NCBI RefSeq assembly: GCF_949628215.1
Contig: NC_134276.1
Coordinates: 133,548,125 to 133,612,124, forward strand
Direction: 5' to 3'
Source: Phalacrocorax aristotelis
Lineage: Eukaryota; Chordata; Aves; Suliformes; Phalacrocoracidae
Length of the DNA: 64,000 nt
Below the pieces are notes generated by a model, which saw only the letters and a list, made by a program, of their open reading frames with translations, ran no database searches and was not told the DNA's origin. Below are positions 32,776-63,537 of the stretch, in pieces. The position numbers were made by a program, and so were the translations under genes. Numbering within the stretch: position 1 is the stretch's first letter; every line of letters begins with the position of its first letter.

Positions 32776-33578
32776 AAAACACTTCAAAGTCACTTGCTTT
32801 CTTTACATAAATTTCTCTCCTTTCCAGCACCTTCCCTCAGAAGGGAGCCACTCTCAGCACAGGAAAAGGGTACGTAGGCCTATTGACAAACCAGATGTTG
32901 CTGAGGAGTTGGAAAAAGAGAGACAGAAGAGGTCTTTGAAGTGCAAGTTAATTGCTGAACTCCTCTTTCCTGATCAGCTATTTATTTTCTATCTCATCAG
33001 AACAATCAGTAAAGATTGTTAATCAAATGCAGACATAAAATAAAGGAAATGGAAACTGCAGTCCACACAGCCACAAGTTACTGTCCCCTAAGCCATTTTC
33101 TTACCTGACACAGAACAGTTATTTGAAATATACGTATGTTTAAGTTTGAAATACTTTAGAGATAGTGAACTGTATGTGTACTCTCATTCCTCTATGAATA
33201 TTATCAAGCAGTGAAAACCCCAGTGCTTTTCACTGTGCTTGGGAAGGTTACCCTAATCACAAGAAATCTGTAGAGCTAAGATTGTCAAAAGAAATAAGGA
33301 GCCTGAACAGAAGATGATATAATAATAGAAGCTAAACAGAACTAACATGCCACAGACTGGATTAAAATGAAAAAAGAGCAGCCATTACCATGGTCTGCAA
33401 ATATATAGACACAGTCCTGAAAAGTTACATGTGTATGAGGATATAAAGAAAAAAGGGAGATAGTACAATGTAGTATGCATCTCAATAACGTTCAAGAAAA
33501 ATAACATGTAGAATTCCATTTATTCAGAAATTGTTCTGACTATTCAGTTTACTTCTGGCTACATAGCGAAGCACATGC

Positions 33579-39198: not shown

Positions 39199-39533
39199 CA
39201 GCAACACTGTAGATGAATTTGTGTATCAATTCCAGGGTTCCATTCTTTAAAAATTGGCAACATACTCAAAACAATTCAAAGGGTTGAACCATTCCTGGGC
39301 TGAGATCCTCAGTCAGCTGGTCAAGGAGTAGGTACTCCCATTCTGCGTGGAAAACTCATCAGTCCCCACACCTTCTGTCCTCTTAGCACCATTCACCTTC
39401 CAGACCAGATTCAGGTGGTCGGGGTAGAAACCAGAGGCCAGGCATACCAGCGTGGCCTTGCTTTTCTGTTGGATCTCTTGCTTTGATGGGGAAAAGATGG
39501 CCACAGCTGGAGGTATGATTTAATTGTTTTTCC
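39199..39533 (-). pseudogene. TCR Cbeta exon 1 pseudogene (second constant region)
   Basis: A second copy of the Ig-like Cbeta domain, complete from acceptor (TTTCAG, 39,534-39,539) to donor (GTGAGC), but 335 nt against 336 in the intact copy. Codon 5 is a stop (GAA to TAA, base 39,522). Codon 74 is a stop (CGA to TGA, base 39,315). A one-base deletion in the run that encodes NFLNN shifts the frame near codon 96. The rest of the coding frame, including C31 and W45, is unchanged. The 3' 75 bp and both flanking introns are clearly diverged from the intact gene, while the central part is almost identical, so the copy is old but was overwritten by conversion. Exons 2-4 were not found. No functional receptor chain can be made from it. 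Confidence 0.97.
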
Positions 39534-39547
39534 CTGAAACAGAAAGC

Positions 39548-40250
39548 AATATGGCCTAGAGCCTTCACACTCATACATCTAAATATCAGATCATGCCTTT
39601 TTTTTGTAGAAATATGTGTGTTGTAGACTGCATGCTGAATTCAAAATCTAGTGTGATCTATATTGCTGAGCATGCAGGATCACAATCTTCAGTCTAAGAG
39701 ACAATTATATTTACACTAAATTTTAATTGTCTTTCCAACATAGTATGTGTTAAATATGCCGTGCTGTCTATGCCATTTAAATAAAAATAAATAGGTTATT
39801 TGGACAGAATGTAGCTCCAGGATTTAAAATATAAAGGTGCAGAGCAAGTACAAAACTTTTTCTCTGGATACTGACCAAATACCTGAGCTTACTAAAGCTA
39901 AGATACTAACTGAAAAGAATTTAATTCTCTGGTTTGTTGTGCTAAGCTCTACAGTGAGCAGAGGGCAAACTGATCCTCTGCATTCATTCGCCATTTTCTT
40001 TATCTCTTTCTCTGTATGTCAGTCTCCTCAGGACCTGAGTCAAGATTTTTCTGAAATTTCTTGGCTTTTTTCACCTCAATCTCTCCTTCTCCTTATCTTA
40101 CAGTTTTAGAGATAAAAATAAACAAGCAAATTAATTGACCCCCCCAACCTGTAACCTGCAAATTTTTTTAACCTACAAAGTTTCCTAAAACAACCAAGAG
40201 GGAATGAGTTTTGTTATTTAGCAAAGAAATAGTAGGCCTTGTTTTCTTAC
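39548..40250. other. J-C intron DNA of the second cluster
   Basis: No further J segment recognised. A short FGQYPE-like frame near 39,880 has no splice donor. Confidence 0.5.
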
Positions 40251-40300
40251 CTAAGTCAGTAAACTTAGTTCCTGTCACAAAATATTGCTCATATCCAGGG
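40251..40300 (-). pseudogene. TCR Jbeta segment, second cluster, probably non-functional
   Basis: Fifty nt between a heptamer (CTTTGTG, complement of 40,301-40,307) and a good donor (TTAG/GTAAG). It encodes PGYEQYFVTGTKFTDL, close to mammalian Jbeta segments of the YEQYFGPGT type. The first glycine of the FGxGT bulge is valine. A 12-nt spacer leads to a nonamer at 40,320-40,328 that matches the consensus at about five of nine positions. There is no stop codon, so it could still rearrange, but the motif change and weak signal suggest decay. It is the J nearest the Cbeta pseudogene, 0.7 kb away. Confidence 0.8.
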
Positions 40301-40329
40301 CACAAAGAGCTAATCGAGTGATAAATCCC

Positions 40330-43300
40330 ACACCCCACACATCTATTGAGCAAAACAAGGATTTAAATTGTGAAGGTTTGATTCTGCACTGCTAATACCA
40401 TTTCCACTCTGCTTCAGGAAAAATAAGCACACTAGATCCTTGGTGTCTTCTCCTGGTGCCAAAAAGGACACAAAGTACAAGTTTATCAGACTATGAAAAG
40501 AAGCAACTGGTACTGCAACAGTGTTTCTCATGTCAGTGTCACAGGACTTGTCAGCTCCATCATTTTTATTAAAACTATCTCCTATTTTTTCCTTGCATAA
40601 ACTCACAGCAATGCAGAAAGGATTGAGATTAGAAAAAAAACAGAGTTAAATGCTAGACACTAGTTGCTCTTGCCAAAAGTCTGTCTGTGTCTAAAGATAT
40701 GAATGCTTGAGTTTTGTGGTTCTGTGTGTGCATTATGTATGACTATTTCCCCTGCTACAGAAATGTTCTGTGATACATCCTCTTTAATTCAGATTCTTCC
40801 CATTTAGCTTTTCTTACATCCTCATTGGATGACTTTACAGAATTATCTCCCATATCAGCATTTATAGTTCTTCCTGATTTTCTTTCTCAGACTCATTTGA
40901 CCATCTCCTTCTCCACTTTTTCCCTAGCTGTCTGCTAAGAATCCAGTGTATACACCTGAAATCTGAATGTGTGGTAAACAACTTAGAGATGTCATGGTAA
41001 AAATAATCTTAATGACTCTAAATAGTTGCATAAGAAACCAGACTGAAACTAAAAATGTAGGGTGAAATTTTCTCTCTAATGAAATTAGTGGAAGCTTTAT
41101 CAATCATTTCAATGAAAGTAGCATTTTAACATTTGGTTTTCTATTTTTGTATCCTGGATCCAGTGTTTTAGTTCAGGGTCAGCACTAGGTTGTCTGCACC
41201 TAACTTGAGAAAAATTATGTTTTCCCAGTTTTCATGTAGCTGGACATGCAGGTCGTTTCTCTTTCTCTTAAAATGGTATCTGGATCCTATCTTCTGAAAG
41301 CATAAATGCTGTCAGTTAGGAAATGCATAGATGATATTACACTATCTACAACTGCAAACTGATTTTCTTCAGCAATATATCAGTTTTCACCAGAGCCGGA
41401 TCACAGTAGGTTTGTTCACTCATGCACAAATGCACTTTGGCACTACAATTTCCATTTACTTACCTGTTTTTAATCATGCTGTGGTGCCTACCACTTTTCT
41501 CTCTATCTTCTCCTAGAGAATCCCAGTGAGGATCACCAGATTCTACTGATTTAGGTGCCATCAAAAAATCCCTTTCTTTTTATTCTAGAATCTTAAAGGA
41601 ACTCACTGGTATTTGCTGTATTTCTTTCTTACATAGAACTGTTTAGTTTTGTCACTCCTCCAAAATGTAGTTTGTCTCCTCCAAAACACCTATCCTAAAG
41701 TCTCTCCCCCATTCACTTTAACCAAGCTCTGCCATAACCACTCTGAAAGGCTATGTGTGAGAAGACGACTGATCAGGATTTTTTTTGATAGGCTTGATAA
41801 ATGCAGCCATTTTTACCAAATATCCTTATAGATTATATTCATTTTAATGTGCTCCAGAAAGATCTGGAATTATTTTTTATATTCCATTCTGCTGTGGTCT
41901 AGTCTACTATAGAGCATGAATAATGAGGTATTTTGGGAAAAGAACGCATCACCTGAATCCAAAGACTTCCCTCTATGTTTACCCTAGTCACACTCCCAGA
42001 ATCTCACCCCTTGCACAACCTAATACACTTCTCATGATTCCCACTTGCCCAGAACCGCTACTTTTGTTCCTTCTCCAAAATACTGGATATTGGCAGAGCA
42101 CAGCTCAGAGTGTAAAATCAAAACTATCACACCTGTCCTGGGCTGCTGTCTAGTGATAACCATGTTAAACATTCAAATACCTTTTTTTTGCAGAGAGTAG
42201 CCAAAGGTGTGCTGAAAAGAAGGTATATCAATTTATCTAAGTGGTAATTTGTTATTAAATAATCTGCATTGTTTTCTAATGATGATTTGGATCACAGCAA
42301 AAAGACTTCATTTCTCTGTCGTTAGTAAAGCACTTTATTGCCTGGTGCCGTAGTTTGACATCAATATAGGAGTCATGATATATATTGTAAGATCCAGTCT
42401 CTTTCATTTGCACACACTCTCGCTTTCTTTCCCTCCAGCTTCCAAATCTTTTGCCCATTCCTTATGAATACCTGTACATCCTTCCCAGTCCTACTTCTTC
42501 TCCCTTTTTCTTTTTCATGGACTCACATTCCATTTGAATATGACAGTGGCATATAGTGTGAATAAGAGGGAATCATAACAATTAGTTCATTCTGTAGGCA
42601 ACTTAATTCTGGGGAAAAGACTTGGTCAGTCACACAGTTAATTTCTGGTAGAATAGAACGAGTAGATCAGCGAACACTGAGTAGAGTCTCTGGAAATTCT
42701 GCACTGTAGAGGTCATATATATTCTTCCACAATACATTTATCTGACTTGAGGTCTCTTCTTCTTTGGTCTTGTCTCATCCTTCTCACTCCCTTCAGTTTA
42801 TTCCATTAAGCTTGCTTGCTTATTAGCTTTCTCCACAGTTTTATTAATTTGACAAATTAACACCAAACTGTTGTATTCACAGGGCAAATTTAATAACAAT
42901 AATTCAATTGGTTAATTTGTCCCCTTCTTCACAGTCCCTACTATCTCCCTTTGTTTTGACCTGTCTTTCCTGAAACACAGTCTTTAGCCTTAGTGAAGCT
43001 TAGCTGACTCAGACCCTTCCACTGCCCTTTTTTTTCTTGCCTAGAACATTGAGCCACATTCCTTTTTAAAAATACAGTATTACTGCTGACTTCATATAAA
43101 AATTCTCTGAGGAGTTTGTTCTCTCTTCCTCTTCCTTATTGCCACAAAATTTCTATTTCCTAATCTACCATACCCAAAAAAGCCACTCCTGAAAGATTCT
43201 CCACTGCTAAAAGAGCTGTACTAGCCCCTGGAGATGCAGTATGCTTCTTTACATAAGCAATGTCTACTGCATTGAAATAACAGGACCACAGGGAAGATCC

Positions 43301-45492
43301 TATTTATCCTTCCCTTGCTGTCCCACACTCTTTTTACTTCCCTTTCAAGCTTAATAAAAAATATTTTCATTTAATCTGTTTTGACGTTAAACATCTTCTT
43401 GCCCATGAACTTACAAATACTGCTTTCAGGCATGCATCCTGACTGTTAAGTGTCTCAGACAATGACTGTTTTTCAGGCCACTCGTTGTCATATATCCTAC
43501 CATTTCACAGCCCAGCAGACTGAAGTGTAATCACACAGCCTGACATTTGCCCTTACCCCTTACTTAATTCTGCAGAATTCTGAATCACCTAATTGGAAAT
43601 CCCTTACTCATGTACCATCCTTCCTGTAATTCATACAATGGTAAGGTGCTTAACCCACAAAATCTGTTTTCTCCTCTCCCATAATTAATGTTCTGCCTGC
43701 TTCAAGTGATGAGAGACCCAAAACCAGATGTCCTTTTCAAGGTAAAGTTTTATCATAACCACCAGAAAGAATCCCTACTATACACATTTCTTGGGAGATA
43801 TTGCTTCAGGTATAAAAATGCTGGCTCCCACAGGAAGGTCAGTACCTCTGGCATGTGCTAACACAAACGCTTGTCAAGGAGGGTGAAAGAGAATTGACAA
43901 ATGCACTCAGTTTTGCTGTCAGCCTCTACTTGTCACTCAGTGTAGTCACTGAGGTCTGTTGTCTGAACTTGAGAGGAAAACCGTAAGAAAACAGTACATA
44001 TCTGTTGTAACAGTGTTACGGTTTTGAAGAGTCGAGGACAAAGAAGCCTCCATCAACTCCTGTTTTCTCTCTGTCCCCTCCCCACCTCCTGTGATCTAGG
44101 AAATTTTGGACACAGGAGATCACCAAATGGGAGGAGTGGGAAGCTGTTTATTTTCTGTTCTCAGGACCCTGGGACCCTGGCTTGTGCCAACAGATAATAG
44201 TCCCCTATTCCATGTCAACTTTGGACAGAACCTGCTCACCAGACTTCTGTGCTTCCTCCATTTCAGATTATGTCCTCCTGGCTTTCTGTTTCAAATGCTG
44301 TTTCTCAAGTATATTAGCCCTTTGCTTGGATTTTCAGCCAGCAGTCCTTTGTCATCAATCCTCCTCCTCCTCCTAAAATACATAATTAGAGCTCTAGTTT
44401 GCCTTTTAACTTATCTTTCAATTTCTGAACAGTGTTTGTGCCTTGAGCTGCAAGTTATCTTCAGCTTATGAGTTCTACTTCAAGAATCAAAACATCATCT
44501 TCTTCCTTCTAGGAGCTCCCCTACTCATGCACTTTCTGTGTTTCTCTTTGTTGTTTGTTTCTTTTGTTTTTTTTTTTCCTCCTTCTGTATCTTTGTCTAA
44601 TTCCTTGAACCTTTCAAAAGTGAAAATGACCTAGAGGGTCTTTTGCAACGATCAGGGCAAATGTGACAAAAGTTATTTATGAAAATAACAATTACAACTG
44701 TAGGACAGATCACGTCTCTCACTGATACACAGAGTAGCTTAAACATGACTTGACTAAAATAGAAAATATAGGTATAAAAAGAAATAATTGAAAGACAAAA
44801 TTCTTTCTGGGTTTCCTTTGTTTTATTTCAAACATACTTTGTAAACAACGTTTTCTAAATTGTAACAGTCATCTTGGTTCCTCCTCCAAACTGTAGTGGC
44901 TCTTTGTAAGCTCAGCTAAAAATTATTGCTAAGATTACCAAAATATTGCTGATAGAAGTCCAAATGGCTAAGACTGTTACTCTGGGATGTCTGAGTTTGG
45001 GTAAAGGAGAAATCCACTCAACTTTCCTCCCTTAGTGGGGAAGAAAATGCTAAGACTTTATGTAAATTATTGAGGGACATTACACTGTTTAGTTAAGGAT
45101 ATCAAAAAGTGCTCCTTCTGTGTTCATGCCTTGTGAATTTGAGAACCATAACCGCATTTTTGTAAAAAGTAGTCTTTCAGAAGACAGTTCTTTTTGTTTG
45201 AAACAGCCATGAGACTACATAAGTAATAGTTGTAATCTCTTTGTTCAATATGATATTTTATCCTGTTCTGAAGTGTTTTGAGGAGATTAAAGAAGTGACA
45301 AGCACAGAGAAGAAAAAATGACTCAGTTTTATGGGATTATACCCATTTGTCCTCTAGCACTATGATATACTTTTTTCTGACAATAACATTAAAAATTAAA
45401 TGCCTGGTTCCCGTCAAATCTATCACCAGATCCTTTTCAAACAAACAAATATATGAACTGACAGGTGACTCTTAATCTATTCACTGAATTTT
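40330..45492. other. Non-coding DNA between J segments of the second cluster
   Basis: Contains two faint J-like stretches (about 41,465-41,510 and 41,535-41,575, minus strand) too decayed to call. No other gene or strong repeat. Confidence 0.45.
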
Positions 45493-45499
45493 TCTTTAC

Positions 45500-45545
45500 T
45501 ACCACTATGAGCCTGGTGCCATCACCAAGCTAATCTTGGTAAGAA
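45500..45545 (-). pseudogene. TCR Jbeta pseudosegment with a perfect heptamer
   Basis: A consensus CACTGTG heptamer (complement of 45,546-45,552) precedes a J whose 3' part reads LGDGTRLIVV, matching FGDGTKLTVM of the 62.3 kb J with Phe changed to Leu. A TAG stop lies 5' of the motif. The base before the donor seems lost (GTA/GTAAAG), which would shift the splice phase. No good nonamer is seen at 12-nt spacing. It is clearly a J, but disabled. Confidence 0.75.
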
Positions 45546-46284
45546 CACAGTGAGAGGAAAAAGCAGCTACCATGCCACTCCTGAAAGGGTGTAACTTCTC
45601 ATCTGGCTAGTGTTCTGTTCCCTTCTCTACCACCCTTGAACTCAGCATCTATTTTGGCTAGAAATTGGCCTACTTTTTATTAGTCGGTATGTGAGGATTT
45701 TCTTAGATGACAGGTACCAGAAATGAAAGAGAGCTGTTCTCATCAGTCACACATGTAAATATAATGGAATATGTTCTAAAGCTTTACCATTTCCTGATTT
45801 TGCTATACTTACTTTAAATAGGAATGCAAAATTGTTAGAATAGCTGTGTTGGTCATACTGAAAGGTGCTGCTGGAGTAACAGAATATGAAGAGTGAATGC
45901 CAAGCAAAGACTGCAAGACTGATGAAGGCATGTAGTGGTTACTTTCCTAAAATATTCATTTATCTCCAATGCATTTAAGTTCAGGGATCACAGTAAAACT
46001 GAAGAATCCTTTATAGTTTTGTCCTACTTTTCTGATCTCAGATTGAATCCAGATAAACATCTAGTTTAGAAATGTGTTTAGTAATAGAGACTTCTTTTCC
46101 TCCTTTACATCAGTAGGCATGGATTTAACAATTATTCTAATCTGCCTTTTGTCAAGATAATAAGTCATTTTAACACTGTTTCCTAAATCAACCCTTTAGC
46201 ACATTTTACTGGTTGTGTCAGCATTTTATTCTGTAATGAATTAATATTCTACAGTAAGAAACAGAAATGCCTAAGGAAACACAC

Positions 46285-46332
46285 CAAGTATTGTCAGCTA
46301 GGTGCCCTGTCCAACGTACAGTGGTGAGTTTG
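46285..46332 (-). pseudogene. TCR Jbeta pseudosegment
   Basis: Forty-eight nt after a TATTGTG heptamer (complement of 46,333-46,339). It reads NSPLYVGQGT, stop, LTIL, then a G/GTGTGT donor. Apart from Phe to Val and one TAG stop it is a textbook J resembling the mammalian NSPLHFGNGT type. No convincing nonamer. Confidence 0.75.
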
Positions 46333-46840
46333 CACAATATTTTGAAGAACTAGCAGAATGTCTGCCACTAGAAGCTCACAACTGCACATAAAGCCTGTTC
46401 AATATCATACTGTATCTTACCTTTCATGAGGTCACAAACAGAGGGAACATTTATGCTCTTATCTGTGTTAGAAAATACTGTGCTTTTGCAGAAGAATATG
46501 CTGAAACAGATAGCATATTCCTCCAAGAGGTAGTGTATGTAGTGTATCCAGCCTACCTAGGAAATAGCTCTTTCTATCTCTATCTGTCCTGTTCTGAGTC
46601 ATTGTTTCAGAATTCAATCTGACACACCATCTGTAAACAAAAGCAGAAACAGTATCTCTCCTCCCTTTCCGCCATCACTACGCAGTGCTAAATAAGAGTT
46701 GAATTTCTGGAACTCACCCATCCTGCACCTATTTCCCCTGACTTCCCTCTTGCTCAGTTTTCATACAAAGGGTTTCTTTTTTTCTTTAAAAAATTTCCAG
46801 TGTCATGTATTTGTTAAAAATGTAGGCTTCCTTTCCTTAC

Positions 46841-46886
46841 CTAATATTGTTACCTGGTTCCCAGAACCAAACTGCAGAATATATAT
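46841..46886 (-). CDS. TCR Jbeta segment, intact, second cluster
   Basis: A TACTGTG heptamer (complement of 46,887-46,893, one mismatch) precedes 46 nt ending in TTAG/GTAAGG. The frame is open: IYILQFGSGNQVTIL, with the F-G-x-G motif intact and the usual Thr replaced by Asn. The nonamer at 12-nt spacing (46,906-46,914) is poor. Heptamer and spacer resemble those of the J at 59.64 kb (CACAG..., then ACAGACTA against CAGAGACTA on the plus strand), suggesting paralogy. It lies 0.85 kb 3' of the relic D. It is the only undamaged J in this cluster. Joined to the Cbeta pseudogene downstream it cannot give a receptor. Confidence 0.85.
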
Positions 46887-46893
46887 CACAGTA

Positions 46894-47731
46894 CTACAGA
46901 GACTATCTCAAAATATACCCCTCCCCATAACAAAAATGGGAGGGAGCAATATGAACATTCCATGTGAAAAATTCAGGAAAGAAATGTGTCATCTTGAGAG
47001 ACATTCCCAGCGACTGATGCTCACAGAAGACACTGCAGGAATGCTACTATTGCTAACAAGTAGGCCACAGAATCCTCTTCCCAAAAAGAAGTGATGTAAA
47101 TGCTGTTTTAGAGCAAACTCGAAACTAGCCTGGACAACATCCTAAGGAGTATCCTATTGGGTATGGTGTCAAAAGGATAATGTGGGGTGGGAGGGTAGAT
47201 ACAGTAAACTTTCCTGTAGCCTCCTTCCTAGAAGTCACTTACCTGATGGGTGCTTTCTCCTAGCAAGAAGAGTGTAAACGTGTTGAAATTACTATTTTTT
47301 CTTATGATCCCTCAACCAGACAGAGTCTTCCAAGGCCACATGTGCGAGAAGAAAAACATTGCATGAAGCAATATGGTTGGCATGTGGCTGCTTATTAATG
47401 ACTACAAACCTGCTGATTTCTGTTCAGAGGATGTCCTGCTTGAGACTGTCCCATAATGGTGGAAATATATATAGAATGGTAATGGGCTAAGCAAAAAGTT
47501 TTTTCTACACGCACAATCTGCAATGAAATCTAGACTAGAAACCCTTGATATGAAGACAAACAAGAATGCTGCCAGGATTTTGTTACAAGACAAAAAGATT
47601 TTTTTATGTGGGTGACTTCTTGGTATTGGGAGGGAAAGGATTCTCTATGTTTTGTCCACCTGTTCATGCTGGGCATACTCCTCAGAAGTATGAACTCAGA
47701 GAAAGCTTTAGAGTTTATCCCTTTTCAGAGA
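46894..47731. other. Non-coding DNA between relic D and its J segments
   Basis: A faint J-like stretch near 47,240-47,275 (LGEST, donor GTAAGT, minus strand) is too short and decayed to call. Confidence 0.4.
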
Positions 47732-47812
47732 GTTTTTTTGTAAAGGTCTCCCAAAGGAATGCATCACTGTTTCACCAGTGTTCCCACAATGGTTGAGCTT
47801 GATGCAAAGCCA
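47732..47812 (-). pseudogene. Relic Dbeta segment of the second cluster
   Basis: On the plus strand: nonamer-like GTTTTTTTG (47,732-47,740), a 23/24-nt spacer, heptamer CACTGTT (47,765-47,771), a 13-nt core (47,772-47,784), heptamer CACAATG (47,785-47,791), a 12-nt spacer and nonamer-like GCAAAGCCA (47,804-47,812). The arrangement, core length and 23-side sequence (TTTTTGTAAAGG, then GGAATG.AT before the heptamer) match the D at 63.49 kb, so this is a diverged duplicate, not a chance pair. The core, read on the minus strand as GGAACACTGGTGA, has lost the G-run typical of Dbeta. Signals on both sides still approach consensus, so recombination at low efficiency cannot be excluded. Confidence 0.72.
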
Positions 47813-49159
47813 ATGCTTCCTTCAGCTCTGCCACCAGTGGCTGAAGACAAACTTTTGGAAATGCAAAAGTCTGTGCTTATACACAATGAACTTTAGAAAA
47901 CAGATGGTCTTGGCTATGTTGCATGTCTCCGTATTGCAGAGACATCTGGAAAAATAGAAGGGCTCCTATACTGTACCTCTATATGCAGAGTTGTGCTGTG
48001 TTGTCTCCTGTGACCCACTACCACTCACCAAGACAATCTTGTATTTATATCTGATAAGAAACAGGAAGGGGAGATGGCTGTGATAGGCTGAAAACTAAAG
48101 AGACACTGACATGGGTATGAGCACATAATACAGATGCTAAATACCAGTAGAAGGCTAAACAGTACAGGTGCACTAATAAGGGAGAGTGCAGAGTTTTTGT
48201 CATGGGTTGATTTAGGGGTGAGGTAGTCACAAGAAGAAAACACCATTCAATGACATAGAATTTAAAATATATTTTCTGAGTGGGCTGGGTATAGTGGATG
48301 GGTAGCAATTTCTGTTCTAAGATTTGTGGCATGTGCACACAAACACACACACTTTGTACAGCGAACACATCAATCAAAGCCCCCAGGGCAGCTGTGGCCA
48401 GCACCCTGAACTCAGGTGAAAAGGACACTCACTCCAACTGGTTGAGGTGCCTAAGTCCAGGCTGGTCACCTGGATTTTAATGTGGACCTCAGGTTCAGTC
48501 TTCTACAGTATTGGGCATTCATTAATGTGTTTGTCTGGAGGAGCTCTTGTCTCAGAAATTTCTCTATCTTAGATGGTTGTCATAAGTCAACATTGGCCTT
48601 CCTAGTCATGCCACACCAGGCTGATCTCTGACTTTCTTCATATCTGAAGCCAATTAAATTTTATTACCTGGGTGAAAATCACATTCTAGCCTACCACTAT
48701 GCATGTAATAAGGATGTAAAGTTTGGTGGATGTAGACTGAAAGTCTCAGGTAGGCGTCCCCAATAACAGTCATCTGTGCTTTGTTACTCAGCACATCCTG
48801 GAATAGCCTAATTGAGTGGCAACAGGACAGATGAAGTGAAAGTCTCATTCTGAGTGGCACTTTCAGGCAATGAGCACACTGTGATACTTTCTGTCAGGGC
48901 CTGAGTGTGCCACCCTCATCAGGGACCTCCACCCTCTGCCCATGGGCCCAGAATCTCCATTTAAGCTTAGACCTAGACCCTCCATTCTTCCCTGATCTAT
49001 GTTGTAGGTGTACCTGTATCCAGCCCTGTCTCTGTTATTTCCTCCTGAATGGACCTTGTACCTATGTTATAGGTAGCTTGTCTTCTGGATGGACTCCTCA
49101 TATGCAGATTGTAGCTTTCCCTCCTGTAGCTTGGAAAGACTCTGAACCATGAGTCCATG
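47813..49159. other. Non-coding DNA between the two clusters
   Basis: No gene or recognisable repeat family called. Confidence 0.45.
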
Positions 49160-53360: not shown

Positions 53361-53760
53361 TGTAGGACGTTATTGCTGCAAAAGAACAAATCAAAACACA
53401 ACGATTCATACTTCTTCGATGGAAAAGAAGCTAAAACTTTATTCCTAATTCAAGGAGCTGGGTCGTCAGCTTGAGCATTAAGGGGTTAACTTGAAGATAT
53501 GATACGATATAGTACAATACAATATGAAACAATATGATATGGAAGTACAGAGAAAACCCAGCAGTGATTATAACAAAGTGGAGGAACAGGAGAGGGACAG
53601 AGAGCCACCAAGAAATAATACTCAGAAGTTCTTGGACAGAAGTGTAGATCCTCTGCTATGAAAAGTTAGAAACCATGATTTGCTGTGCTCCTGCTGATGT
53701 GAAGAGGGCTGTTCATTTATTCTCTATACAACTTGCCACCAGCCTAATTGGAAAAAACCC
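53361..53760 (-). mobile_element. Possible retroviral LTR, minus orientation
   Basis: On the minus strand an AATAAAG (complement of about 53,437-53,443) is followed by about 80 bp ending CCTACA at 53,361, like an R-U5 end. The upstream edge is unclear and includes an AT-rich quasi-repeat (about 53,497-53,545). Confidence 0.35.
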
Positions 53761-53998
53761 AGAATAAACAAATTAAAAAAAAAAAACAGGCAAAAGGCAC
53801 AAATACAAATACAAATCTAGGAAATAATTGACCATGTTTATCAGTGTCCCAGGTGTTGTGTCTCCTGAGAGTGTTAATGGAAATTACCATGTATCTCCAT
53901 GCTTTCTCCTCTTTTTGTACCAGGGAAGTATCTTAACCTGTACAAATTATTTACTTTCATATTGAACTAATGTCTTTACACACAGCTTTTTGTATTAG

Positions 53999-55194
53999 AT
54001 GACTAATCTGGTGGCCTTCTGTAATGGAAGGCCTGCATCAGTGACTGCATCAGTGGACAAGGGAAGAGCTACGGACATCATCTACCTGGATTTTTGTAAG
54101 GCCTTTTTTATGGTCCCCCACAATATTCTTACCACTAAATTAGAGAGATATGGTTTTGATGGATGGACTGTTAGAGGGATAAGGAATTGGCTGGATGACT
54201 GTGCCCAAATGGCTCAATGTCCAAGTGGAAACCAGTAACAAGTGGTTTCCCACAAGGGTCCATACTCGGACCAATACCATTTAATACCTTCATCAATGCG
54301 TTATTGATAGTGGGATTGAGTGCATCCTCATCAATTTTGTGGATGACACCAACCTGAGTGGTAGAGTTGATATGCTTGATGGGACCTGGACAGATCTGAG
54401 GAGTGGGCCCATGTGAACATCATAAAGTTCAACAAGTGCTAGGTCCTACACCTGGATTGGGGCAATCACCAGGATCAGTACAGACTGGGGGATGAACAGC
54501 CTGAGAGCAGACCTGTGGAGAAGGATTTGGATATACTGGTGGATGAAAAATTGTGTGTCAGCTGGCCATGTGTACTTCCAGCCCAGACAGCCAATTGTAT
54601 CCTGGGTTGCATAAAAAGAAGAGTGGCCAGCAGGTCCAGGGAGGTGATTCTGCCCCTCTGCTCTGGTGAGACTTCACCTGGAGTACTGCTTCCAGCTCTG
54701 GGGCACCCAGTACAAGAATGACATGAACATGATGGACTGGGTCCAGAAGAGGGCCACAAAAATGCTCAGAGGGATGGAACACCTCTCCTATGAAGAAAGG
54801 CTGAGAGAGTTGGTGTTGTTCAGCCTGGAGAAGAGAAGTCTCTGGGGCAACTGTCTTGCAGCCTTTCAGTATACAAGGGGGCTTATAAGAAAGATAGAGA
54901 CTTTTTACCAAGGCCTCTAGTGACAGGACTAGGGACAATGGTTTTAAATTGGAAAAGGGTAGGTTTAGACTGGCTATAAGGAAGAAATTTTTTACAATAA
55001 GGGTGGTGAGACACTGGAACAAGTAGCCCAGAGAAGTTGTGGATGCCTGCCCTATCACTGGAAGTATTCAACTGGAAGGTTGGACAGGCCTTTGGGCAAG
55101 CTGATGCAGTGAGAGATTTCCCTGTTCATGGCAGGGGTGTTGGACCAGATGATTTTAAAGGTCCCTTCTGACCCAAACCATTCTGTGATTCCGT
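53999..55194 (+). mobile_element. CR1 LINE fragment with reverse-transcriptase remnant
   Basis: The sense frame contains [20 protein letters not shown] and then [20 protein letters not shown], the CR1 reverse-transcriptase core, followed by frameshifted RT and C-terminal parts (RATKMLRGMEHLSYEERL, LVLFSLEKRSL). It ends with CCATTCTGTGATTCCGTT, the CR1 3' end. About 1.2 kb, with several frameshifts. It lies just 3' of the intact Cbeta gene. Confidence 0.94.
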
Positions 55195-55425
55195 TATTTT
55201 GATCCACCAAAGTACAAACCTACTCCCTCTAGTATCCTTGAAAAAAGGACAGAACAACATAATTGAGATTGTGTTCATACTCACTGTCAACTCTACCAGG
55301 TCACTTTTCAAATATATCTCCCTGTCCTGCTGAGGCTTCCACTACTCTTACTGGGTATATCTTTCAGCCATATGAGAAATTTACTGATAAAAAGTATTTC
55401 CTGGTAGTTAGTTAAATGTCTCCCA

Positions 55426-55431
55426 TTTATT
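55426..55431 (-). terminator. Candidate poly(A) signal of the intact Cbeta gene
   Basis: AATAAA on the minus strand, about 112 nt after the tentative stop codon in exon 4 and before the CR1 at 55,194. Confidence 0.4.
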
Positions 55432-55542
55432 CAGATTTATCCCATTGTTCTTTATAATCTTTGTAAATCTTTGTTCAGAGTTATTCCACTTATCTCCTCA
55501 AAAACCCTGCTTATTACTTTCACTTCAGTCCTGAGTCCTTTT

Positions 55543-55593
55543 TCAATGCTTACATGAAAGTATGACATATCTGATACTTCCCTTCTTTACTTT
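55543..55593 (-). CDS. TRBC: TRBC exon 4 candidate: cytoplasmic tail
   Basis: After a modest acceptor (CTTCTCCAG), in the phase required by exon 3, the frame reads KVKKGSIRYVILSCKH and stops. VKKGS resembles the VKRKDS/VKRKNS tail start of other TRBC genes. The rest is longer than the usual tail of about 5-8 residues, so the true exon may differ. Confidence 0.4.
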   Translation of the reverse strand, partial: KVKKGSIRYVILSCKH

Positions 55594-57728
55594 CTGGAGA
55601 AGTTGTCCTTAATTCTAATATTTTCCTGTATGTTTAAAGAGTATTTTGACAAGGAATTGCTCTGCTAGATAGCATTGATTTTATCTGAGTTCTGGAAAAA
55701 CAATAATAGAAAACTCATCACTTGTGATTTTTCAAACTAGCCTGCACAAAGCATGGCAGAGCACATGGAGAACAACCCCACAGCTGAGAATAGATTTAGC
55801 CTGTATCCACTCATCCTTGTAATAGTGAGTAAGCTCAATCTTCAAGTGGCATACTAGCCTACCTTGGCTGTCCACACCAGAGTGCTCACCAAAACTGCAT
55901 AAAGCAAGGCTTTGCCAAAGAGGATGAGGTAAGTGAGCTTCAGAGAATTTCCATACCGCAAGTAGGACTCTGCAAATCAAACATCATTTTTGTATTGAAT
56001 TATCATCATCATGAGCAACTAGATCTAATGTAGCTTGAATCAAATAAGAACACTTGAAATCTTTATCTAAGTGACACAAAGGAACTAGAGCCAAATGAAT
56101 GGCTCTGTTGACACAACATCACAGGGGATGGGAAAGAACACTGATTCATAGTGTTTACACTCTGAATACACTGTTCACAAAATACACAAAAGAACAAAAA
56201 GAGAAAGTGAGTCTAGGGAAGGCAGAGGTTGGCTTTATTCTAAGAAACTAGGTCCTATTTGGGAATGTTTAACCATTCTGTTGCCACACCTACTGAAAAT
56301 CCAAGTTGTTCATGTGAATCCTCTCATAGGAACTCAAGTTAAGCTGAATCACAAGATATGATTTTTTTCACTTGTTATTGTCGGTGATCTTGTGAGTGCT
56401 GCTGATATAGCAAGGAACTTCTACATAGCCCAGAATAACATGGTAGCTAGAACTTTTATTCTTATAGATTTTTCACTCCTAAGAAATTACAGTACTATTA
56501 AGACACCAGTCTGATTTTGGTTCAGCCTAAAGATTCCTGAAGCATTAAAGACGTTGGTGGAAAACAAGAGTATAAATATGTATACATAAAGGAATGAAAC
56601 ATAATTTTTAATATGAGTATCCTCCAGTTTTGAGGGCAATGTGACTTGTAATGAGAAGTAATCTGAATTTTTTACTAAGAAATATTCAGAATTCCGGATT
56701 TTGAATCTTGGTGTCATAATGACTTGGCTAAGTATCATTTTTCTCTTTCATGGCTGAGCAAGCAGCTTCCCAGCAGAAGGCAGTGTTAAAAACTGGAGGA
56801 TATGATAAAAAGAGCCAATTACACTCTATAGGAAGGTTCCACAATTTTTTTTTTTTAAATCTAAATACAAACCACTTAGATGAGGAAGTACAAGTTATTT
56901 ATTCTTGCAGTAGAAATCTCACACACCTTGTACTTAGTACCAGTAAAACTGGAATTAAAATACATACAGATATTCGCCTGTGAGAAGACACACATACCTT
57001 CTGTGAATGCACAACCTGAAAGACAAAAATGAACTGAATGTCATGTTTCTCTTCAATGCAAACAGAACGTAAATTTTAGAAGTTTCAGTTTACAATATAC
57101 TGCCTGATTCATTTTACTAAACTACAAATTTTACTACATTACAAAGATTTGTCAGTGAAAGTCTGAAGAAGCCTTTGAAAAACTATAGATGTATAATGAT
57201 AATGCAGATACAGAGGCCCAGGAATATGAAGACACATATGCAAATACCTACCTATTTACATATATATTTGTGCCATAACAACACCCTGTATGTATAGAAG
57301 TTGTATATAGATGTGTTTCGGATCATAATCCACACCCTTTTGATTTGTGATTTCTAGTTTGTACAGCATGGTGATACACATTTTATACGCACCAGCATCA
57401 CCATAGATGAATTTGTGTATCGATTCCTTTGTTTCATTATTTAAAAAATTGGCAACACACTCAAAACGATTCAAAGGGTTGAACCATTCCTGGGCTGAGA
57501 TCCTCAGTCGGCTGGTCAAGGAGTAGGTACTCCCATTCTGCGTGGAAAACTCATCAGTCCCCACACCTTCTGTCCTCTTAGCACCATTCACCTTCCAGAC
57601 CAGATTCAGGTGGTCGGGGTAGAAACCAGAGGCCAGGCATACCAGCGTGGCCTTGCTTTTCTGTTGGATCTCTTGCTTTGATGGGGAAAAGATGGCCACA
57701 GCTGGAGGTATGATTTCATTGTTTTTCC
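55543..57728 (-). CDS. TRBC: TCR beta constant region gene, intact
   Basis: Four-exon gene for the membrane-proximal part of the TCR beta chain, which pairs with the alpha chain and the CD3 subunits on T cells. Exon 1 encodes the Ig C1 domain, exon 2 (18 nt) the connecting peptide, exon 3 the transmembrane segment, and exon 4 (tentative) the cytoplasmic tail. All exon junctions found are phase-consistent: J ends with one base of a codon, exon 1 begins with two and ends with one, exon 2 ends with one and exon 3 begins with two. This is the same plan as mammalian TRBC, including the 18-nt second exon. No lesion is seen. It is served by the J segments at 59.6-62.3 kb. Confidence 0.95.
55863..55969 (-). 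CDS. TRBC: TRBC exon 3: transmembrane exon
   Basis: 107 nt between acceptor TTTGCAG and donor AAG/GTAGGC. It encodes ESYLRYGNSLKLTY, then LILFGKALLYAVLVSTLVW, then TAK. The lysine in FGKALLYAVLVS is the conserved membrane charge that pairs with CD3 acidic residues, and the tyrosine five residues later (CART-type motif) is kept. It aligns along its length with the mammalian exon. Confidence 0.96.
56998..57015 (-). CDS. TRBC: TRBC exon 2: 18-nt connecting-peptide exon
   Basis: Between acceptor CTTTCAG and donor G/GTATGT. Spliced, it encodes (G)CAFTE with the cysteine that makes the interchain disulphide to the alpha chain. The length equals the 18-nt exon 2 of mammalian TRBC, where the sequence is CGFTS. 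Confidence 0.93.
57016..57392 (-). other. TRBC intron 1
   Basis: About 377 bp between exon 1 donor and exon 2 acceptor. No other feature. Confidence 0.9.
57393..57728 (-). CDS. TRBC: TRBC exon 1: Ig C1 domain
   Basis: 336 nt between acceptor TTCTGTTTCAG and donor G/GTGCGT. It encodes about 112 residues starting GKNNEIIPPAVAIFSPSKQE. C31 (TLVCLASGFYP) and C91 (RFECVANF) form the domain disulphide, and W45 is the core tryptophan. GVGTDEFSTQNGSTYSLTSR and LRISAQEWFNPLNRFEC are the conserved strands shared with chicken Cbeta. N-glycosylation sequons are at NGS (65-67) and NET (98-100). It ends YGDAG across the junction with exon 2. Confidence 0.98.
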
Positions 57729-57741
57729 CTGAAACAGAAAG

Positions 57742-59457
57742 TAATGTTGCCCTGAGCCTTCATTACTGTCTCCAAGCAGAAACCCCTTAAAATTGTACTG
57801 TATTTATGCTGTGTGACTCCTGATATATCTGGCCTTTTAACAGCTGTCTATTAAACAATATCTATTAGATAAGCAGACACCAGGAAACTGAAAGCACTTG
57901 TCTTCACTCATTACACAGAAACATAAAAGGTCTGGCTATAGAAATTCATGAGTGCTTGAATTTCTAGTATTGTCTCATGTCAGAAGAATAGGAAAGCTGA
58001 AAGAAGCTGAGCAAACAGGTGGGTGGAAAAGGCCTGTATTTGTAATATTGTACTAACAGATAAAAGTCTGTGTTATAAGGCACAAGAATCTTCAACTGAC
58101 TCTCTTACATTCCTGGAGGTGTAGTAAGACATGATGGTTACTGCAGTGTTCAAAATTATACTACCATGTAATACCCTACTTGGATGCTCCTGCCCACCCC
58201 CATCTAAGGAAGGAGCTCATTTTTTTCACTGCCTCAAGTTTTTTAAAGTGAGATTACTCACTTTAGGTAAGTAATCTGAATCTGCCTGGGACAAGCTTTG
58301 CTTTAGGTCTTAACTTCCCATCCATTTTAAGACTATAAAATATCTCTTTATATTTTTTATTATTTAGGTTATCCCAGGTATGAGAAGCCCTCATCCTAGA
58401 CTACACATCTTCCCAAAATGATGCAAGATTCTATACACTCAGAAACCAAAAGATGTCCCCTGTGCTAAAGTGTTTAATACCTACATATAAGACTAAAGAC
58501 AATAGACTTCTACACTCAAAACAGTGTACAAGGCAACAATGAGACATTATTCAGAAGGTAGCCAGTGACCCCAAAAGCCACCTTTTTTTCCCCCCCACAT
58601 ACATATATTCTATTAGAGTGCCTTTTTTACTCATCTAGTATCACAAAACCACCAGGTCTGCAGAATGCACATAGAAACAGAAATGCAGAGAACTATGGAG
58701 CCAAAGAAAAAACTTTTACTTTTTTTCAGTGTGAAGCACTATAAATGGTAGATGTTCTTCCTGATCACTCCCTCCTTTCTAGAGTGGAGAGAATTAGAAT
58801 TAGCAGAAACATATCTTGCATAGATCTTGATCCCTAATCCCTAGTGTTTGCTTTCAGCTGTTAGTGTTAATCAGCATTGTCAGTTCTTACTCTACAAAAA
58901 TCCCTGGGGTGCTTCTGTGAAAACATGATCTTGTACAGACTTTAGAGGTAACTAGATAGTAATGGAGATAACTCCATAGAAGGTTTTGCACTGCTCTGCT
59001 TTCCTTCCAGTGGACACGAGGAGAGGATGATCACTTTTACTGCTACATGGTTTTATGATTTTTTTTCCCTATCCTAAAAGTATCTCTGACCTAAGTTCAT
59101 TGGTTCATAGCCTAAATGGCTAATGACTGAAGGCATGGAAACAGATAGGGAGGACACAAAAGAAAAATAAGAGGCACTTAACAGACTAAAACAAAAAAAA
59201 AAGACAAAGAAGAAGGCAGGTGAAAAAGGCAGGCAGAAAGAATAATAAAACTCCTGGAATGCCAAAGCTAGAGAATGAGCATGCTTGAAAATGAATAAGG
59301 AGACTGGTACAAGCAAGAGCAGAGACAAACAGAAAAAAGTGTTATCAACAGCCCATTCAGTTCTGATCTTCCACAGTGTTCATGGCAGACACTGGCACAA
59401 TGCTTAATCACATCCATGCATAAACTCAAGCATTCTTGTCACGCATTCTTCACTCAC
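57742..59457. other. J-C intron of the intact cluster
   Basis: No J segment, gene or strong repeat recognised. Confidence 0.5.
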
Positions 59458-59505
59458 CTAAAAGTATCACAGTTCTTCCATTCCCACCATGGCAAGGTCA
59501 GTTTC
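59458..59505 (-). pseudogene. Possible degenerate Jbeta segment
   Basis: A strong donor (TTTTAG/GTGAGTG) is preceded, in J phase, by HGGNGRTVILL, which aligns with FGxGTxLTVL if the phenylalanine is lost. No heptamer or nonamer is visible. Position, 180 bp from a good J, supports a decayed J, but chance is possible. Confidence 0.3.
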
Positions 59506-59636
59506 ATGATTTCTTGTTATCTTTCAGTCCTACTCTCATTTTAAAATGATCTGTGTATATGTTACATATCATTAATGCAAGTGAAATTTTCAAGTGTCCT
59601 CCACATTGAGCACTTGGGTTAATCACAGCTACTTAC

Positions 59637-59689
59637 CTATAACTCTGAGCACAGTGCCAACTCCAAAGATAAGTAGCAAATTTAAAAAG
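59637..59689 (-). CDS. TCR Jbeta segment
   Basis: A heptamer AGCTGTG (complement of 59,690-59,696, two mismatches) precedes 53 nt ending ATAG/GTAAG. It encodes FLNLLLIFGVGTVLRVI with the FGxGT motif intact. The nonamer at 12-nt spacing is poor. The J body itself contains a perfect CACTGTG, inside the codons for GTVL. The Leu-rich N-terminal half is unusual for a J. Probably functional, but its recombination signal is weaker than those of the 60.5 and 62.3 kb segments. Confidence 0.85.
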
Positions 59690-60516
59690 CACAGCTGTAC
59701 ACAGACTATAACTATCAGTGTTGTTATGCTCCTCTTGCCCACCACTTAGTTCCTTAAAATGGTACTATTTAAAGGAGCAAGCACCAATGTGCATTTCTAC
59801 AGTTTGCTATCAGATGTGGCAGCGGCAGATGGAAAAAGTTATTTTTCCCTGTGATTCCAAAATGCCTTGATATAGGTGATGTTAAATCCTTTCCTAGCAG
59901 GGGAGAAGGCAAGCAAAGCAAATAGTGAAAAAGAGAAAGAATAGAGGAGAAGTGCACTGAGAGAAAATACAGACCTTTTTGAGAATTAGAAGTCATGAAA
60001 AGGACTGTTAGAGGAAGCCAGTGTCCTAAAGGAACTTTAGGCAGCCTGCCCACCATCTATGGAGGAGGGGAGCAAAGTACCAGCAAGACTACTTTCCCTG
60101 CCTGATTCAGCAGACAAAAGAATCCGGACTCTACATCTGAAATGTTGCTTTTGACAGTTACATAGATGAATTGCAAAAGCTTGCAGACCAAAGAAGGATT
60201 TTTCATTCCCAACCTCTATGTTTTCATGGAAAATAGGAGGAAACAGAATCATTTCTTCCTTTCTTTCTTCATGAAGTTCCCAGGAAGGGAAGACTGAGCC
60301 AATGGACACAAGCATCTAAAAATTTGTGCCTGCAAAACCTACACTTCCATATTAGTACATCTCATTTTAATAAGCAACCAATAAAGCATTAATCCTGTCC
60401 TCATGGCTTTATGAACATTATTAAGAATTAAGATCATTGTTCTGCTGCTAATTAAGAATGCTCTTGTCCCCTAAACCAGTATCACATAGAGCATGGAGAT
60501 CTGACTTCTGTCTTAC

Positions 60517-60565
60517 CTAGGACTGTGAGTTTTGTCCCACTACCAAAGTACAGTCTTCCATTATT
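60517..60565 (-). CDS. TCR Jbeta segment
   Basis: Heptamer CTATGTG (complement of 60,566-60,572), 12-nt spacer, nonamer GATTTTCCT (six of nine to consensus). 49 nt encode NNGRLYFGSGTKLTVL followed by G/GTAAG. Canonical and complete. Confidence 0.93.
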
Positions 60566-60599
60566 CACATAGTTTTGCAGCTGCAGGAAAATCTCTCCT

Positions 60600-62112
60600 C
60601 TGCTCAGTCCCCTGAGCCAAACCTATGGTCTAACCCTCCCCTCAAGTGGTACCAGCAAAAGAAGAAACACAAAGTACATTAATTTATGGTCCCCTAAAAA
60701 AAAGAAATGTCTGTAAGGAAACACTGCCACACCTGTGTGTCTGACCAGGTGAGATCAGAAATATCTCTTTCAGGCTTAGGTGAATCAGTTGTTGCAACTT
60801 CCACAGTTTCTTTAGAGGACATTTTTCTGTTTATCTAGGTGTACTATTAGAAACTATTTCCCATATGTAGAGAGAGTAATTTTCTTTCCTTATTTTCAAC
60901 TAAACAGCCTCATTTCCTTTCCTTAATTTCCTCATTTCCTTTCAACATCATGAAAATTCTTCTCTTCTAAAATAAATGTCTGTCTTTTTTTTTTTAATTT
61001 ACAAAATAACTTGTAATATATAACACAGGACCCTGGTCCATTATCCCCATCACAGCAATCCCTAAACATCTTTCCCTTTCTCCTTCCCTAAAAGGAAGTC
61101 TCTGCTTTTATTCTCTCTGTTCTCTTAGCTATTATTATTCAAGTTAGCTGCATAGTTGACTATGTCAATGAGGGATCAGCATACTGTTTTTCATCAGCTC
61201 AGACACCTCACATTCACAGTGGATTTCAAAAAACGTGCTGATCACTGACTTTTTCCTATGGAGATTGAATTTTGTCACTTGTAATCATTTTACTCTGCAG
61301 TGAACAGTGCAGTACCAAAGCCTGAGGCATCAATTCTCTGACTCTAGGAGCAATACAACAGCAAGAAGAGACATCATTGTTTATCAAAGTCTTAGAAGCA
61401 ACCTTGTTTTCCCCTGGATTTGGAGAAAGTCCAAATCCAGACGTGTGGCCAGACAGAAGCATTCCCTGAGAGATACTGTTATTTGAAATGAACAACATAT
61501 TCTGTTTCTGTGGCCTTTTAGTATCTACTCTGAAGAGTAAGAGCATTGTCCTAAGATATCTTTTTGTCACCATCCTGATAAGCCTGTTTTGTGGAGAGAA
61601 CTATGCTGTGCTATGGAGAGTTGTTTTCTGTAACAACTTGTTACACCTGCAGAAAGCTGTTAGTATTGCTTATGATGAAGTTGAGTATTTATTTGTGGCT
61701 TCTATTTTGTCAGCTAAAAATGCTAGTACGCTCATTTGTCTTTCCCAGATATCTGAAATGAGACATGCTTTAGTTTACCCTGAGAAGATCCAAAGTAGTT
61801 GAAGTTAGTAGAGTCTTGATTTTGTTTTCTAGACCTGTCCAAAGTGTAGCTGTAACTCAGTTCTTTCCAGACAGATAGCCTTTCATTGACTTGTTCTTAT
61901 TCACCTGTAGCCCTAGGAGAACTCTCATTATGGAGAATAGTTATATTTTTGAGGAATAATGATTTTTGCAGATGTTGATTTATTAAGATAATATATTTAT
62001 GATATGCACATATTCTTTAACCCATTCCTCATCCTAATTGTTTTTATGGACAGCTTTTTATTCATTAAAAATGCATTAATTCAGTTCTCCAAAGTGAATC
62101 ATGTGTCCTTAC
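60600..62112. other. Non-coding DNA between J segments
   Basis: No further J or gene recognised. The open frame at 61,488-61,802 has no domain or splice context. Confidence 0.5.
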
Positions 62113-62160
62113 CTGGAGTACTAAACTTAGTCTATTCTCCAAAGTAGATTGGGTTACTAG
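62113..62160 (-). pseudogene. TCR Jbeta segment with an in-frame stop
   Basis: TGATGTG heptamer-like sequence (complement of 62,161-62,167), 48 nt, then CCAG/GTAAGG. It reads SNPIYFGE, stop, TKFSTP: the second glycine codon of the FGxGT motif is TAG. An A/T-rich nonamer-like TTTAAAAAC lies at 62,180-62,188. It is non-functional unless the stop is a sequencing error. Confidence 0.78.
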
Positions 62161-62278
62161 CACATCAGGAAAACACCAGTTTAAAAACTAAAGGGAGGAG
62201 AAGGTTGAAGGGAAGTTGTCTATAAAGAGAAGACCTGGGATTTAAACTGATTTAAAAGAGAAAACAGAAATTTCTTAC

Positions 62279-62327
62279 CCATTACTGTAAGTTTTGTGCC
62301 ATCGCCGAAAACCAGGTTATTGGTGGT
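62279..62327 (-). CDS. TCR Jbeta segment, first after D
   Basis: Perfect heptamer CACTGTG (complement of 62,328-62,334), 49 nt encoding TTNNLVFGDGTKLTVM, then G/GTAAG. The nonamer at 12-nt spacing (62,347-62,355) is weak. It lies 1.1 kb 3' of the D segment. Confidence 0.93.
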
Positions 62328-62355
62328 CACAGTGACAAAGTGTTGTATCATAAGC

Positions 62356-63457
62356 TAAGAAAAGGGATGCACTTCAGTTGACTTTAGCAAGCAGAAGCTT
62401 AAGCCATGTTTACTGTATCTGGAATTCCAACGATCCTTCAATCTCTGTCTGAAGGGATTTGGCAGAAAACCAGTTTGAAATCCTATTGTGTATCTGTAGC
62501 TTTTACAAAAGCATTTCCCAGAGTTCTTCGATACTTATTTTTATTGTCTACATTTCACCTCAAGATGGTTTACAACCTTACTTTAATCTCCTTTTTATAG
62601 CAGATGTAGAAACCATGCAGATGTACCCAAAAAGTAATTGTCTAGAAATAGAATACCTCTACAACTACAGCTTCCTTGCTGTCAGTCTTGTACTCTAAGC
62701 ACTGTGAAGCCTTCCTTTCTGTAACTTGTGGAGTTAATAATCAAATAATACTTGATCTGTGGTTGTCATAATCGCCTGCCTTTCATGTAGGTGTTCGCCT
62801 TTGTGGCACTGAACTAAAACAAATCCATTCATTTTCACTTCAATGGCAGGCCAGTCATCTTGAATAGTCTTTCAGGATCCCATTCAAATTTCTGATAGGT
62901 TAAAAGTAATCCATGCAAGGAGAGTCCAGAAGAATCAGTTGGCTGGTCTCAGGCAAACCCTTGGTATCCATTAGGAAGAACTGCAGTGAGGCAGCATGGA
63001 GATGATTAGAGAAAAGTTTTGTCCTGAGAGGCATGAGTCAGTCAGTGGACACTGGAGATTTATTTAAGAGAGAAAACCCCAATACATTTTATATAGTGCT
63101 TCTGAGATACCTGCTACATATCAGAATTTTTTGTTTAACACTTTTATCACATCAAGAAAGAACCATTTTGTGGTCTATTGCAAACACTATCACACCAGAA
63201 AAGAAAACCCTAATTCTCTGCTTCATATACTCTGATAGGTTTTAGGTGCATCTGCAGTCAATCTGGTTTGCTGAAAATTATTTCAATGTCTCAGAATCTC
63301 TTGGTTTGTTTTCCAGAGAGGGCAGGCTCAGTTCTCAGATGGTGAAAGTAAGTCCCAGCATACTAGGTCTGTCAAGAAAAACCAAGACAAAACCTGCCTG
63401 CTGTGCTACAGACTTCTCTGCAGCTCTCTTTCTTACACTCTCCCACAAGGCACATAT
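62356..63457. other. D-J intergenic DNA
   Basis: No further D or J segment recognised. Confidence 0.5.
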
Positions 63458-63537
63458 GGGTTTTTGTAAAGGCTTTGTGGGGAATGTATCATTGTGGATC
63501 CCCTGTCCCCACAATGATACAACCTCATACAAAAACA
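63458..63537 (-). CDS. TRBD: TCR Dbeta segment with both recombination signals
   Basis: On the minus strand: nonamer TGTTTTTGT, 12-nt spacer, heptamer CATTGTG, core GGGACAGGGGATC (63,497-63,509), heptamer CACAATG, exactly 23-nt spacer, nonamer CAAAAACCC (63,458-63,466). The 12-signal faces V and the 23-signal faces J, as the 12/23 and beyond-12/23 rules require for Dbeta. The core matches the near-invariant vertebrate GGGACAGGGGG type. Both heptamers are CACAATG rather than CACAGTG. Confidence 0.95.

Follow-up and report, generated by a model that had tools for sequence, protein, structure and literature searches.

Work on avian T-cell genetics usually takes the chicken as its reference. Its TRB locus is given, in the accessible text of PMC10972964, as one D, four J and one C gene with an inverted V. 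A bird with two C genes and a second J-C cluster is already published: in the open portions of PMC5278385, the duck locus has the order Db-(Jb)2-Cb1-(Jb)4-Cb2 followed by an inverted Vb4, and the conversion contrast between exon 1 and the rest of its C genes is already known. Among squamates, the skink is reported to have a single TRBC, and TRE, regarded there as a squamate-only duplicate of TRB that forms a separate locus, was absent from the non-squamate reptiles examined (PMC11754216, accessible text).

We analyzed a window of 64,000 nucleotides from Phalacrocorax aristotelis (NC_134276.1, positions 133,548,125 to 133,612,124), in which the minus strand carries, in order, D1, four J-like segments, C1, a D2 relic, eight J-like segments and psi-C2, followed by a pseudo-V on the plus strand. 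This is the D-J-C-D-J-C order with inverted V of mammalian TRB, and the sequence-only reading of the locus as mammal-like was right as far as architecture goes. Like the duck, P. aristotelis combines a near-identical exon 1 with divergent exons 2 to 4 in its two C genes, a C1 exon 4 of 8 aa, a C2 exon 2 of 6 aa, a C2 Tm-Ct in exon 3 and an inverted V at the 3' end; the two differ in that duck Cb1 exon 2 encodes 14 aa and its counterpart here 6, and in that, for the duck, six J are given as functional, Cb2 is expressed and a second D is not reported, whereas C2 is dead in our bird, which has eight J2-like segments and a relic of D2 (PMC5278385, open portions). Conversion between C genes is shared with mammals, whose C genes resemble each other throughout their coding region, whereas the likeness here is confined to exon 1 (PMC5278385, same portions). 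The D2 relic shows an intermediate state unreported in duck or chicken, and no earlier report of such a relic in a bird was met in the accessible parts of the literature searched, which was mostly non-subscription.

Two cassettes of unequal condition

The window contains no N and belongs to a 219-Mb sequence in a genome of 1.279 Gb and 352 contigs. Searched as DNA, this entire genome yielded two copies of TRBC exon 1, both in the window. All parts of the two-cassette plan and the inverted V were located (Table 1), but the J counts, the number of open J, the edge of psi-C2 and the state of the V depart from the sequence-only reading. It had counted four J in each cassette, where the J profile scan gave three open segments plus a relic in cassette 1 and eight J-like segments (one borderline) in cassette 2. 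Two cassette-2 segments, J2a and J2f (46883; 42091, with a GC splice donor), rather than one have open frames, and psi-C2, which had been placed within 39199..63537, extends beyond that edge to 37979.

Table 1. Features of the TRB locus of P. aristotelis (positions in the window)
Feature	Position	Strand	Description
TRBD1	63459..63537	-	5' 12-RSS, 3' 23-type RSS; coding 63509-63497 (GGGACAGGGGATC)
TRBJ1a	62279..62327	-	open, NNLVFGDGTKLTVM; heptamer CACTGTG; donor GTAAG; matches chicken SNMIFGDGTKLTVI
J1 relic	62113..62160	-	NPIYFGE*TKFSTP; donor retained
TRBJ1b	60517..60565	-	open, NNGRLYFGSGTKLTVL; donor GTAAG; matches chicken NERLIFGTGTKLTVL
TRBJ1c	59637..59689	-	open, LLLIFGVGTVLRVI; donor GTAAGT
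TRBC1 exon 1	57393..57728	-	Ig domain, intact
TRBC1 exon 2	56998..57015	-	6 codons
TRBC1 exon 3	55863..55969	-	C1-type transmembrane segment
TRBC1 exon 4	55665..55691	-	8-aa tail NSDKINAI and stop
TRBD2 relic	47733..47812	-	coding 47784-47772; 3' heptamer AACAGTG; 5' nonamer weak
J2a	46841..46886	-	open, YILQFGSGNQVTIL; FGXGN replaces FGXGT; donor GTAAG
J2b relic	46285..46332	-	ANSPLYVGQGT*LTIL; best yet weak match of chicken NTPLNFGQGTRLTVL
J2c relic	45500..45545	-	LGDGTRLIVV; stop immediately upstream
J2d relic	44860..44910	-	EPLQFGGGTKMTVT; heptamer poor; no splice donor
J2e borderline relic	43042..43090	-	score 3.8 (scan position 43083)
J2f	42049..42098	-	open, SANIQYFGEGTKVAVL; GC donor; 13/14 residues as chicken NIQYFGEGTKVTVL
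J2g relic	41640..41690	-	DKLHFGGVTKLNSS
J2h relic	40251..40300	-	GYEQYFVTGTKFTDL; donor retained; best window match of softshell turtle C2-linked YEQHFGTGTKLTVL
psi-TRBC2 exon 1	39199..39533	-	conversion tract 39533-39264
psi-TRBC2 exon 2	38874..38891	-	6 codons, DCSIFE
psi-TRBC2 exon 3	37979..38118	-	C2-type transmembrane and cytoplasmic segment to stop; two frame changes
Inverted TRBV pseudogene	32491..32800	+	3' of psi-C2; frame break near CDR1; Phe for second Cys

The J profile, built from 26 J peptides of database proteins and no sequence of the window, returned 12 matches of at least 3.8, all on the minus strand and all inside the two cassettes; the best plus-strand score was 0.4 and the best minus-strand score outside the cassettes 2.0. 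Recombination signals did not separate live from dead J: RSS scores overlap between the cassettes (13-15 for J1 and 9-14 for J2, with 13 reached by 7% of random places) and were therefore not used to call J segments dead.

P. aristotelis keeps an intact, putatively working cassette 1, with a 12/23-RSS D, FGXG J segments followed by a splice donor (their nonamers being weak) and a C1 gene (57728-55665) whose four exons have canonical splice sites and read open over 162 aa. Cassette 2 is decayed, as had been proposed: the D2 3' heptamer is altered, six of the eight J are broken, and psi-C2 carries stops and frame changes, including two in-frame stops in exon 1, a one-base deletion there that leads to a third, and a Tyr for the second intradomain Cys. 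The D2 relic keeps a 13-nt core like that of D1 and 12/23-type spacers, and its 3' heptamer starts with A, not C. Its homology to the intact D is borne out by sliding the D1 element over both strands of the window with 400 bp around D1 excluded, which scored 57 at D2 against 33 or less at every other place. In a cruder control, which did not exclude D1 and D2, the D1-D2 score of 61 was reached by 4 of 1000 random window stretches; the top random score of 210 means that D1 itself was drawn. Between the cassettes, by eye, lie an LTR-like end (53380-53760, minus strand) and a CR1-like element (54000-55200, minus strand). Flanking genes are of the Eph receptor family, and positions 14001-18000 are GC-rich (53% and 47% in two 2-kb steps), which may reflect a flanking-gene CpG island.

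The inverted V lacks both an open frame and the full pair of Cys, and no RSS was recognised at it by eye. Of 15 V queries run by tblastn, the V of chicken P0028 matched it best (40% identity). Two open V on the minus strand (L021 and L022; G000:C1:133635128-133635406 and 133637956-133638234) lie approximately 23-26 kb upstream of D1 and are 84% and 49% identical to loon V; with the 15 V queries at E 1e-4, a search that more distant V could escape, no other V was found in 140 kb upstream. Three V-like open frames at G000:C23:595767-646400 (L023-L025), of equal weak score and 30% identity, possibly represent another receptor locus. Two further V families were noted.

Gene conversion in exon 1

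At the DNA level, exon 1 of C1 and of psi-C2 are 97% identical. Aligned by blastn, the two cassettes match strongly in exon 1 (387 bp, 93.8%) and weakly in the D element (E 0.36) and are otherwise unalike, the remaining matches being short, scattered and of E 0.36 and above. Similarity between cassettes in the introns adjoining exon 1, exon 2 and exon 3 was not above that of random stretches, except for approximately 33 bp before exon 1 (10 of 500 random stretches as high). Within exon 1, an identical run of 206 bp was matched in 5 of 200000 permutations, and differences number 3/270 in the first part versus 11/66 in the last (p = 1.8e-6). Between the C1 and C2 proteins of the same species, the Ig domain is 97-100% identical in goose, golden pheasant and turkey and 90% identical in P. 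aristotelis (X counted as mismatch for psi-C2), and identity in the tail region is 20-33% across the four (30-33% in the first three). Two turtles lack this contrast, with 66-68% in the Ig domain and 39-43% in the tail region.

On these patterns of identity, the likeness of the two exons is the mark of recent gene conversion and not of a young duplication. Since the conversion tract reaches into what is now a pseudogene, conversion would have continued up to or beyond the loss of that gene, and we infer that C1 was copied over C2.

Two constant-region isotypes

We built a tree of the tail region from 51 named, tail-bearing rows hand-picked from 212 distinct proteins (drawn from the best 120 of 212, the best 120 of 197 and the best 120 of 735 protein matches), with 51 columns, long branches and several weak forks. 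Window C1, which has a C1-type tail and a coding exon 4, fell inside bird C1 (96/86), and psi-C2, a pseudogene whose C2-type membrane segment and tail lie in exon 3, fell inside bird C2 (96/81); by eye, the psi-C2 tail resembles loon and duck C2 as far as the stop. The C1 group (100/97) holds 12 bird, 4 turtle, 1 tuatara and 2 mammal rows, the turtle rows not forming one group, and one salamander row stands beside it (95/87). The C2 group (93/80, just under the level starred by the tree tool) holds 8 bird, 5 turtle, 1 crocodile and 7 squamate rows. Reptile rows and most bird rows other than chicken are gene models, some of them chimeric. In the loon Gavia stellata, model P0147 seems by eye to fuse a C1-type exon 2 with a C2-type exon 3; the annotation may be chimeric in a bird that carries both C genes. 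In the snapping turtle, both types occur as gene models with consecutive numbers on a single 71-kb contig (P0117, P0154).

The predicted proteins show C1 and C2 to be different isotypes in the connecting peptide, membrane segment and tail exons, and their split looks older than birds. A bird-only origin of C1/C2 was rejected (AU p = 0.0005; the taxa are natural, tested after the tree was seen), as was an archelosaur-only origin (p = 0.0076, also tested after the tree was seen); neither an origin confined to sauropsids (p = 0.197) nor a single amniote group (p = 0.338) was rejected. The squamate rows, which group with the C2 type, may be TRB or TRB-derived TRE; because TRE is regarded as a squamate-only duplicate of TRB (PMC11754216, accessible text), a C2-type gene would have existed in the squamate line in either case. 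We infer a duplication before the lepidosaur-archelosaur separation, after which lines lost one C or the other.

The mammal tail sits in the C1 group, on a long branch and at an odd place inside it, and taken at face value it would place the split before amniotes. We tentatively entertain, as a possibility that we consider rather doubtful, that C1/C2 and two D-J-C clusters predate the mammal-sauropsid split, that mammals kept a C1-type tail and homogenised both C genes, and that in sauropsids C1 or C2 was lost repeatedly and reciprocally, chicken and P. aristotelis forming one pair of this kind. Single J matches between mammals and sauropsids look striking (NEKL-FGSGT, NIQYFG). Label permutation gave orthology of these J no support: the score sum for sauropsid against human J1/J2 was reached in 112/1716 label permutations, and same-cluster best matches, 9.5/18, in 811/1716. 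Of the turtle, crocodile and tuatara J compared with the window, one C1-linked turtle J prefers cassette 2, the C2-linked crocodile J slightly prefers cassette 1, and the tuatara J ties between the cassettes.

The chicken locus reconsidered

Among the matches listed, which came mainly from a chicken C2 query, the chicken C tail is C2-type in 27/27 chicken rows, and with a C1 query 4/4 chicken rows among the matches listed are likewise C2-type. The single C reported for the chicken (PMC10972964, accessible text) is thus of the isotype that is dead in P. aristotelis. Chicken J match both cassettes of our bird: one chicken J scores 60 against J1a (34 for the best of the other cassette), another 52 against J1b (40), a third 67 against J2f (44), and chicken J3 weakly prefers J2b (46 versus 40), the reading through the signal, YCAN, agreeing by eye as well. 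J1-type segments were seen joined to C2-type C in chicken proteins. The chicken J set therefore seems to draw on both cassettes and, given its C2-type C, the "1 D, 4 J, 1 C" locus looks like a two-cassette one that has collapsed. The chicken locus, which the sequence-only reading had implicitly taken as the base state, may itself be a reduced form of an older two-cassette plan, P. aristotelis having lost the opposite C.

C1-type models are present in turkey (P0013), golden pheasant (P0012) and ptarmigan (P0145). Among named Neoaves in the matches listed, 16 species are C1-type, and loon and potoo are C2-type, absence from these lists not amounting to loss. Orthology of C1 and C2 across sauropsids and reciprocal loss in birds are not stated in the accessible parts of the literature searched, mostly non-subscription and including PMC5278385, PMC11754216, PMC10972964, PMC13128417, PMC12698447, PMC7349638 and PMC12529555.

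Probable origin of the locus and a proposed unequal loss

The locus, known from one assembly, is very probably the remnant of an old D-J-C1-D-J-C2 arrangement. A recent tandem D-J-C duplication private to this lineage and followed by decay would account for the 97% identity of the exon 1 copies, but we regard it as highly unlikely: the two cassettes share little at the DNA level beyond exon 1 and a weak D match, their introns are no more alike than random stretches apart from the short run before exon 1, C2-type tails are present in other birds and reptiles, and a bird-only origin is rejected by the AU test. Neither the long intron homology nor the lack of C2-type relatives that would go with a young duplication was seen. 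Of the earlier account of a duplication followed by decay, the two cassettes and the decay are supported; a recent and private origin, which its wording allowed, is not, the likeness of exon 1 being due to conversion and the split looking older than birds. A stray copy of C1 exon 1, landed in unrelated sequence as psi-C2 exon 1, would explain why this exon is the sole strong DNA match between cassettes; such an origin is scarcely credible for an exon flanked by D2, J2 and C2-type exons 2-3 in the correct order.

Separate C1/C2 splits in several sauropsid lines, with tails that are convergent or drawn together by long branches, are improbable, though less so than a young duplication. The tree has only 51 columns, several of its forks are weak and the mammals nest oddly, but the C1 group is firm (100/97), the psi-C2 tail follows loon and duck C2 up to the stop, and an archelosaur-only origin is rejected. 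Extremely remote is an artefact of assembly, either an uncollapsed haplotype or a chimera: the locus was judged from assembled sequence, yet the two cassettes differ along most of their extent, the window is free of N, and the order agrees with that of the duck (PMC5278385, open portions).

Starting from an old two-cassette arrangement, we propose that cassette order gave the loss of C1 and the loss of C2 different consequences. D1 would join J1, and the product would be spliced to C1. Any join to J2 would delete C1 and, with only psi-C2 left, give no chain. Once C2 broke, J2 and D2 would therefore have become dead ends, lost their use and decayed. Loss of C1, as in the chicken, would carry no such cost, because J1 transcripts could splice on to C2, as the J1-type segments joined to C2-type C in chicken proteins suggest. 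Such unequal loss would fit both the chicken, with J of both cassettes, and P. aristotelis, with J1 kept and J2 decayed.

If chicken Cb is the C2 isotype with a two-cassette J set, "Cb" is a different gene in the chicken and in P. aristotelis, and it probably differs from that of the chicken in many other birds too, their Ig domains having been kept alike by conversion. As C1 and C2 differ in the connecting peptide, membrane segment and tail, where contacts with CD3 are expected, birds may differ in receptor assembly.
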